Source of the DNA: Mytilus galloprovincialis
Lineage: Eukaryota; Mollusca; Bivalvia; Mytilida; Mytilidae
Assembly (NCBI RefSeq): GCF_965363235.1
Contig: NC_134838.1
Span: 3,415,001-3,479,000, forward strand
Length of the DNA: 64,000 bases
Direction of reading: 5' to 3'
Part shown: positions 330 through 3,300 of the stretch, one piece after another
Layout: each line of letters opens with the position of its first letter
Numbering within the stretch: the first letter of the stretch is position 1
Notes under the pieces: model-generated
Told to the model about the DNA's origin: nothing
Database searches by the model: none
What the model saw: only the letters and a program-made list of their open reading frames with translations
Translations under genes and position numbers: made by a program

Positions 330-3300
330 CCAATACATCCATTACTTCAGGTTGTATACCACAAGTAGATGTTTTGTTTAGTGAGAGATTTGTTTTTTGT
401 TTCTGAGGACTTTATAAAACAAGACATATACAAACCTGCATTAGTGACCACATAAGATCAAACATATTACATATAAGTGACTGTTCCTCTTTTACAAAGC
501 TGTTGATTCTCAATAAAAACTTTATCAGACATTGTTCTACTATATAGGCATTTTTCTGAAAGAAAGAAACTTTATTAATAAGACTAGAAAAAACAAGTGA
601 AACTGCGAGCTACTGCTCACTGATGATACCCCCGGCGCAAGTGGATAATATTAATAGTGTAAAAATATGCAAGTGTTCGGTAAACAGGAAGTTGTCGAGT
701 GATGAATCTGAAAATGCATCACACGGTATAGCTGACTTATATAAATCCTGAAACCAAATTTCAGAAATTCTTGTATTGTAGTTCCTGAGAAAAATGTGAC
801 GAAAATTTTCAACTTGGCTATCATGTGTAAAATCATACAAGTGTTCGGTAAACAGGAAGTTGTCGAGTGATCAATCTGAAAACGCATCACACGGTATAGC
901 TGACTTAGATAAACCCTGAAACCAAATTTCAGAAATCCTTGTATTGTAGTTCCTGAGAAAAATGCGACGAAAAATATTCATGGGACGGACGGACTGACTG
1001 ACGGACTGACGGAAGGACAGACAGAGGTAAAACAGTATACCCCCCTTTTTTAAAGCGGGGGTATAAAAATATATGGTGTAATATTTTGTTTGCTATTATA
1101 TCTTATGTAATGTAATTTATTAAATATAAAGTATTCAATTTTCATTTATTTCTTGCTATCTAAATAAAACATTAAAGTTGTTCAGTCAGATCAGGTCATC
1201 AAATAAGATACTTACAAGTAACGGTGCCAACTGGTCAAACAAATGAGCTGCTACTAATAGAGTTGTACAAGATTTACTAGGGTGATGGCCAAGCGATGTA
1301 TCATCCGTTTTCAACAAAGAATCCTCTGGAAACTATGAAAAATACTGGGTCAATTAAATTATACCTTTTTTTTAAAGTTAAAAACACTTTTAAAAAGCTC
1401 TAGTTGTGAAATAATGAAAACTGTGGTTATATTTGAAAACATCTACAATGTTGAACATCACTAATACTGAAGATTCAGATGCATATAAAACTTTCTACAA
1501 ATATACAGTCAGCCAACTGAACTTCTTTTTTTAATGTAAGTCATTACTGAGATTTTGTTTTTCAAACTATCCAAAGCACAACAGAAAATTATTTTTGATG
1601 AAAAAAAATAACTTTTGCAAACATATGTATCATTTTTTTTCTCTCTGTATAATCACATTATAAGTGTAAATACTGGTAACTATCTACATGTACACTAACC
1701 TGATCTCCTGAGTTTACATAAGGGATGAGATTTTCTAGGTAGTCCAACAGATACCAAGCTTTAGCTATATCATCAGTCGGTGGGTCCTGTAAGGGTCTAC
1801 AACCCTCCACAGGGTATGTATGGTCAGTTAATGTACACTAACCTGATCTCCTGAGTTTATATAAGGGAGGAGATTTTCTAGGTAGTCCAACAGATACCAA
1901 GCTTTAGCTATATCATCAGTCGGGGGGTTGTAAGGTCCTATAACCCTCCACAGGGTATGTATGGTCAGTTAATGTACACTTACCTAATCTCCTGAGTTTA
2001 CATAAGGGAGGAGATTTTCTAGGTAGTCCAACAGATACCAAGCTTTAGCTATATCATCAGTCGGGGTGTTGTCAGGTCCTATAACCCTCCACAGGGTATG
2101 TATGGTCAGTTAATGTATACTAACTTGATCTCCTGAGTTTACATAAGGGAGGAGATTTTCTAGGTAGTCCAACAGATACCAAGCTTTAGCTATATCATCA
2201 GTCGGAGGGTCCTGTAAGGTCCTATAACCCTCCACAGGGTATGTACGGTTAGTTAATGTACACTAACCTGATCTCCTGAGTTTACATAAGGGAGGAGATT
2301 TTCTAGGTAGTCCAACAGATACCAAGCTTTAGCTATATCATCAGTCGGGGTGTTGTCAGGTCCTATAACCCTCCACAGGGTATGTATGGTCAGTTAATGT
2401 ACACTAACCTGATCTCCTGAGTTTATATAAGGGAGGAGATTTTCTAGGTAGTCCAACAGATACCATGCTTTAGCTATATCATCAGTCGGGGGGTTGTAAG
2501 GTCCTATAACCCTCCACAGGGTATGTATGGTTAGTTAATGTACACTAACCTGATCTCCTGAGTTTACATAAGGGAGGAGATTTTCTAGGTAGTCCAACAG
2601 ATACCAAGCTTTAGCTATATCATCAGTCGGGGGTTGTAAGGTCCTATAACCCTCCACAGGGTATGTATGGTCAGTTAATGTACCCTTACCTGATCTCCTG
2701 AGTTTACATAAGGGAGGAGATTTTCTAGGTAGTCCAACAGATACCAAGCTTTAGCTATATCATCAGTCGGTGGGTCCTGTAAGGGTCTATAACCCTCCAC
2801 AGGGTATGTATGGTCAGTTAAGGTCAATCATAGTTCACTCTATTAAACCTTTTTAAACAATTACAAATGTGATACACATAAAACTGACCTACATTTCGGT
2901 CATTCAATATACAAATTGATTACAGGGGATTCAATTTTCTTGTAGATACACATTTTCAGGATTGAAAAGAATTTGAGGTTTTGCCAAAGTTATTATACAA
3001 CCAATACTGTATAATCCCCTGACATGAAAAATATGAAACAAGCCAATTGAGAAAACGAATAGCCTAATGCATAACAAAACAATTTACAAACAAGAATGTG
3101 TCCAAAGTACACGGATGCCCCACTCGCACTATCATTTTTCATGTTCAATGGACCGTGAAATTGGGTAAAAAATCTAATTTGGCATTAAAATTATAAAGAT
3201 CATATCATATGGAACATGTGTACTAAGTTTCAAGTTGATTGGACTTCAACTTCATCAAAAACTACCTTGACCAAAAACTTTAACCTGAAACTCCCACTTT

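Follow-up and report, generated by a model that had tools for sequence, protein, structure and literature searches.

Eight tandem copies of an RNF123-like exon between a U12-type and a U2-type intron in Mytilus galloprovincialis, probably a young minisatellite-like amplification

Eight tandem copies of one RNF123-like exon, all different in sequence, were found on the minus strand at 2807-1700 of the window (the whole 64,000-nt stretch of Mytilus galloprovincialis DNA that was analysed). Each exon copy is preceded by a U12-like branch site with an AC acceptor and followed by a U2-type GT donor, and the array is placed between a U12-type AT-AC intron and a U2-type intron. Judging from the sequence, we consider it probable that the array is a young, minisatellite-like exon amplification made harmless by incompatible splice sites, with copy 1 as the default exon. 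The features concerned are listed below in the direction of transcription; a slash marks a splice junction.

5260-5385, minus strand: upstream exon, end of the SPRY domain (...NFGATPLR), final bases CTCTCAG
5250-5259, minus strand: U12-type AT-AC 5′ splice site, ATATCCTTTT
2808-5259, minus strand: U12-type AT-AC intron, 2452 nt, holding a tandem array of 169-nt period at 3122-4134
2817-2825, minus strand: branch site of copy 1, GACCTTAAC, the sole copy with an intact CCTTA core
2690-2807, minus strand: exon copy 1, 118 nt, readable, no private exon change; donor CAG/GTAAGG
2665-2689, minus strand: spacer 1-2, 25 nt, U2 donor GTAAGG, branch-like site ACATTAAC and AC acceptor
2550-2664, minus strand: exon copy 2, 115 nt, readable, one Asp missing, Pro to Thr
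2525-2549, minus strand: spacer 2-3, 25 nt
2409-2524, minus strand: exon copy 3, 116 nt, frameshifted with the first AC
2384-2408, minus strand: spacer 3-4, 25 nt
2268-2383, minus strand: exon copy 4, 116 nt, frameshifted with the first AC, TGA
2243-2267, minus strand: spacer 4-5, 25 nt
2125-2242, minus strand: exon copy 5, 118 nt, readable, Pro to Thr; weak donor CAA/GTTAGT
2100-2124, minus strand: spacer 5-6, 25 nt
1984-2099, minus strand: exon copy 6, 116 nt, frameshifted, TAG at the exon end; closed with either AC
1959-1983, minus strand: spacer 6-7, 25 nt
1843-1958, minus strand: exon copy 7, 116 nt, frameshifted with the first AC
1818-1842, minus strand: spacer 7-8, 25 nt
1700-1817, minus strand: exon copy 8, 118 nt, readable, private Tyr to Cys and Leu to Ile
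1333-1699, minus strand: U2-type intron, 367 nt, GTTAGT ... TTTTTCATAG
1216-1332, minus strand: downstream exon, FPEDSLL...LFDQLAPLL

TRF reported the array at 1688-2821 with a period of 141, 8.0 copies and 94% matches, in agreement with the original prediction of eight copies of one RNF123 exon. An origin by chance or low complexity was rejected, given eight copies at 94% and a clean exon grammar. The exon copies are 118, 115, 116, 116, 118, 116, 116 and 118 nt long (copies 1 to 8), and all seven spacers between them are 25 nt. The spacers had been described as invariant, which is correct for their length only, since six of the seven are distinct in sequence. This diversity bears on the possibility that errors of assembly or consensus account in part for the copy number or the frameshifts, with one or a few real copies, or with wrong C-run lengths in copies 3 and 7. 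The frame of copies 3 and 7 does differ from that of copy 2 by one C in a C-run (C6 against C5), as expected under such an error, but an array in which all eight exon copies differ and six of the seven spacers are distinct is unlike one sequence repeated wrongly, and both the array flanks and the neighbouring exons are single-copy within the window. We consider an error of this kind unlikely.

U12-type AT-AC introns have the 5′ splice site consensus ATATCCTT. The junction at the end of the upstream exon, CTCTCAG/ATATCCTTTT, is a full match to this consensus, and 10-mers of this kind occur three times on the minus strand of the window and not at all on the plus strand, the occurrence at 5259 being the only one at an identified exon end. 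The 3′ end of the 2452-nt intron is ACCTTAACTGACCATAC. On the other side of the array, TTTTTCATAG forms a U2-type acceptor immediately before the exon at 1332-1216. Both flanking partners that had been predicted, a perfect U12 donor upstream (directly after CTCTCAG at 5259) and a U2 acceptor downstream, were thereby recovered. In this arrangement a copy would be the only bridge from the U12 donor upstream to the U2 acceptor downstream, and copies would not be spliceable to each other; the sequence arithmetic behind this argument is shown here, and the behaviour of the spliceosomes is taken from established knowledge. According to PMC3584512, U12 and U2 splice sites are generally incompatible, so the types of splice site would disfavour both the joining of copies by splicing and the skipping of the array exon, and neither is expected. 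The incompatibility has exceptions, as some sites are used by both spliceosomes (PMC8329584, PMC10853781) and the major spliceosome removes certain AT-AC introns (PMC6717393).

The gene lies on the minus strand and, judged by its predicted product, is RNF123-like, resembling the ubiquitin ligase gene RNF123. Exons joined from about 8020 to 436 with copy 1 in use contain a SPRY domain (Pfam E 5.9e-29), and the array exon encodes 39 residues immediately C-terminal of it. The assignment to RNF123, which we take as a lead, was made with a human RNF123 sequence that was not taken from a database record. A tblastn search with this sequence returned 16 rows, colinear apart from two stray rows elsewhere. 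Strong matches (E below 1e-3) covered four upstream exons and copies 1, 5 and 8; copy 2 and four other exons matched weakly (0.016-0.56), copies 3 and 7 gave 12-aa matches and copies 4 and 6 gave none. Over 24 aa, identity to this human sequence was 66.7% for copy 1, 62.5% for copies 5 and 8 and 58.3% for copy 2. The RING end of the gene is beyond the window. When the spliced piece was compared with the PDB, 72 matches were returned, and the best 60 of these 72 were to other SPRY-type proteins (ryanodine receptors, DDX1, RanBP9/10, ASH2, Vid30), with no RNF123 among them; the array exon alone had no PDB match.

To determine the coding outcome of copy use, every combination of acceptor and donor was evaluated, including the alternative AC four bases downstream, and a product was called open when it was open in the downstream frame. 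Seven of the 72 combinations were open, all of them using a single copy, and multi-copy products were open in 0 of 56 cases. Skipping the array exon produced a frameshift with a stop. The claim that each mRNA should carry exactly one copy was thus sustained at the protein level, but it had overlooked products in which the acceptor of copy k is used with the donor of copy k+1 to give one long exon; these fail because of in-frame stops rather than site incompatibility. Run-on from readable copies 1, 2 or 5 ends at the branch-site TAA of the next spacer. With the first AC, copies 1, 2, 5 and 8 are readable, and copies 3, 4, 6 and 7, which are two bases below the 118-nt form, meet stops. This reproduces the predicted division into four readable and four stop-carrying copies, and all of the residue differences that had been noted among the readable ones (Tyr/Cys, Pro/Thr, Leu/Ile, one Asp deleted) were found.

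A single exon kept the frame for four of the eight copies with the first AC and for seven of the eight with either AC. Three of the seven open combinations (copies 3, 4 and 7) rely on the second AC, four bases on (CATAC/ATAC/CC), and one could imagine that these copies are rescued in this way, with a start peptide unlike the usual one (12 residues, the same in copies 3 and 7). The peptide ahead of the shift point lies outside the RNF123 frame and gives an unrelated start, chance would restore a frameshifted copy about half the time by simple arithmetic, and a first AC is generally preferred over a later one. Rescue through tandem ACs appears very improbable on these grounds, even with the report that U12 3′ splice-site selection is error-prone (PMC3584512).

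By eye, the end of exon copy 1 (2690-2750, minus strand) contains a pyrimidine-rich stretch followed by CTCAG/GAGATCAG, a potential weak U2 acceptor, and by alignment the same stretch and CTCAG/GAGATCAG are present in the other copies. If used, this putative acceptor could constitute a leak in the exclusion, with an 8-nt addition and a frameshift.

The copies differ in their predicted splicing signals. The U12 branch site has the consensus TTCCTTAAC, which pairs with U12 snRNA. Copy 1 retains the original intron end and reads ACCTTAAC, whereas copies 2-8 read ACATTAAC; the sequence upstream of copies 2-8 is the end of the preceding unit, and the tandem junction falls inside the branch site. 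The duplication breakpoint, by turning ACCTTAAC into ACATTAAC, would thus have deprived copies 2-8 of their predicted U12 pairing. The predicted duplex of U12 with the branch site was -5.8 kcal/mol for copy 1 and -1.3 to -1.4 kcal/mol for copies 2-8. In a fixed register, copy 1 (GACCTTAAC, 7/9 consensus letters) paired at -4.9 kcal/mol and copies 2-8 (TACATTAAC, 7/9) had no stable pairing, and the same C-to-A change placed in a perfect consensus reduced the best U12 pairing from -6.7 to -0.2. Predicted pairing of the donor with U1 was -11.5 kcal/mol for copy 1, -11.3 for copy 6, -9.0 for five copies and -2.8 for copy 5. These energies are a crude proxy, calculated from human snRNA segments, and proteins and exon enhancers also matter. 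The distance from branch site to AC is identical in all eight copies, 10 nt counted from the second A and 11 from the first. This equals or falls slightly short of the optimum of 11-13 nt given for U12 introns, in which this distance is short (PMC3584512). Of the spacer design that had been proposed (a U2 GT donor fused to a U12-like branch site and an AC acceptor), the layout was confirmed, but the branch sites are not equal between copy 1 (ACCTTAAC) and copies 2-8 (ACATTAAC), and in copies 2-8 the acceptors are predicted to be only weakly of U12 type.

Copy 1 is most likely the copy normally used: its predicted U12 branch site is far better than that of any other copy, its donor is among the two strongest predicted, and of the readable copies it is the one nearest to human RNF123 and the only one lacking private exon changes. 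Several observations speak against it as the default: all eight branch sites have 7/9 consensus letters and retain TTAAC, the donor of copy 6 is equally strong, copies 4 and 7 are also free of private changes, and the private changes of copy 5 are synonymous. The same signals bear on a scheme of dosage control by poison exons, in which copy choice would be near-random, about half of the transcripts would be unproductive, and the number and make-up of the array copies would set RNF123 output. In-frame stops in copies 3, 4, 6 and 7 (with the first AC) and the donor of copy 6, among the two strongest, are in line with such control. The branch-site ranking favours copy 1, however, and the broken copies carry no sign of conservation, with drift sufficing to explain them; we regard dosage control as doubtful.

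The differences among the copies were next considered as a record of selection. Exon substitutions, hand-listed from the alignment in the frame of copy 1 (leaving aside columns 45, 46 and 49 of the gap block and, in copies 2, 3, 4, 6 and 7, the C state at column 51), numbered ten: four synonymous, four missense and two nonsense. With 25% synonymous expected, this gave P = 0.23, and coding constraint among the copies was not detectable. None of nine essential splice columns varied, against 18 of 143 variable columns overall (P = 0.29; 0.27 with 19 columns); intact splice signals were accordingly rejected as proof of use, since 0/9 is expected by chance. Private exon changes are absent from copies 1, 4 and 7, copy 1 being the only such copy among the four readable ones; copy 5 has two, both synonymous, and copy 8 has two, both missense. 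The one-C difference by which copy 2 restores the frame could hint at selection for readable inner copies. We found no sign of selection on the array.

Another possibility is that copies 1, 2, 5 and 8, the readable ones, are chosen in a regulated and mutually exclusive manner, which would produce small protein differences after the SPRY domain. The splice layout does permit exactly one copy per productive mRNA, the four readable copies do show small residue differences, and copy 5 has only synonymous private changes in the exon, all of which such regulation would accommodate. Against this, the branch-site core is intact in copy 1 only, the donor of copy 5 is poor, four copies are broken and constraint was not detected. 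A search for docking/selector pairing in 1150-2900 yielded a single inverted pair, outside the copies, and 40 of 200 controls in which the flanks were shuffled base by base did as well, so complementarity there was no better than chance. We judge regulated choice to be improbable. Within 1150-2900 competing RNA structure was likewise not supported, the sole, weak inverted pair flanking the array. The proposal that the array was built for one-of-eight choice was not upheld, as seven of the eight copies lack the U12-pairing branch core, four are frameshifted and the substitutions look unconstrained (P = 0.23).

The distribution of variants within the array fits amplification from the inside, as in a minisatellite. 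AGACCC, which matches the RPLQ of the human sequence, is present in the end copies 1 and 8, and AGGACC in the six inner copies; a gap block is common to five inner copies, with copy 5 retaining GGACCC. The unit of the amplification that we favour is minimal. Its start lies just within the branch site of the upstream U12-type AT-AC intron and its end about 11 nt into the U2 intron, so that every copy carries a U12-like acceptor and a U2 donor. Copies 2-8 would rarely be used, and occasional use of copies 3, 4, 6 or 7 would lead to destruction of the transcript. On this reading the array would be tolerated because the gene is insulated from it by incompatible splice sites, and not for any need of eight choices.

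A second array lies at the adjacent junction. The preceding RNF123-like exon ends in a GC-type donor, TAG/GCAAGTAT, with its first intron base at 5973, and this donor forms the initial unit of a tandem array (5985-5670, minus strand) with about 14 copies of a 22-nt unit, which comprises the last 11 nt of the exon and the first 11 nt of the intron. The array has 14 CAAGTAT motifs; when 13 donor-like copies were tested, the frame was kept by the first alone. Two adjacent splice junctions therefore have tandem arrays in which the first copy is the sensible one, which makes a mutational, minisatellite-type origin likelier than a purpose-built cassette.

The exon array resembles coding minisatellites or VNTRs in that its tandem units are short and homogenised and its two end copies have a common state not found in the inner ones, and the window has many other arrays (33 TRF rows, some overlapping); it differs in that its unit is exactly one exon with the splice signals of two spliceosomes. 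Searches for relatives in bacterial/archaeal and in viral contigs gave 35 and 4 pattern matches, respectively, none of them a relative.

The closest parallels are exons 6a/6b (7a/7b) of the JNK family (MAPK8/9) and exons 11/11a of TMEM87A/B, which are mutually exclusive through U2/U12 incompatibility (PMC8329584, PMC3584512, PMC6717393). As in those genes, alternative exons lie between one U2-type and one U12-type boundary such that two should not be joinable, and the array likewise consists of homologous exons in tandem, each with a U12-like boundary on one side and a U2 boundary on the other. JNK and TMEM87 have two exons, however, whereas the mussel array has eight copies, half of them broken, with 25-nt spacers. 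Unlike in the JNK scheme, not every exon keeps the frame alone, and the polarity is mirrored: the mussel copies have a U12-like acceptor and a U2 donor, the JNK exons a U2 acceptor and a U12 donor. The array would therefore follow the logic of the JNK scheme with opposite polarity and eight copies. In PMC6071210 the U2/U12 mechanism is described as limited to clusters of exactly two exons, and a human survey gives five U2/U12 cases, 0.79% of human clusters (PMC5740500). The term 'U12' does not occur in PMC9741552, and PMC5111602 deals with U2-type exons. Among the matches listed, within a partial coverage of the literature, there was no report of a larger U2/U12 exon array; the same partial coverage gave no report of a U12-type intron in RNF123 or of a bivalve minisatellite at a splice site, and no report of mutually exclusive exons in Mytilus among the matches listed corresponded to the array. 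Large exon clusters of the Dscam type depend on competing RNA structures (PMC6071210). The array has a similar layout, with homologous exons in tandem (one per mRNA in Dscam), but its exclusion would need no docking/selector pairing (none found in 1150-2900) and its copies are nearly identical.

More tentatively, U2/U12 incompatibility may permit an exon array of any length in which at most one copy is productively used, with no regulator; a single-base branch difference arising from the duplication itself would rank the eight copies, leaving the others available as alternative or poison exons. If the array is expressed as predicted, it would provide a natural test of how the minor spliceosome chooses among eight near-identical acceptors, with a built-in branch difference and internal controls. 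It would also imply that U2/U12 incompatibility, which PMC6071210 restricts to pairs of exons, extends to large arrays and is able to protect a gene against a minisatellite of exon size. We suggest that exons between one U12 and one U2 intron may tolerate tandem duplication better than ordinary exons.

Two further features of the window were noted. The tandem family of 169-nt period recurs at 3122-4134 (inside the U12 intron), 34112-34426 and 53851-54184, and looks like a dispersed satellite-like element. At 57442-58122 (minus strand), an open frame of 226 aa resembles, by eye, a reverse transcriptase fragment.
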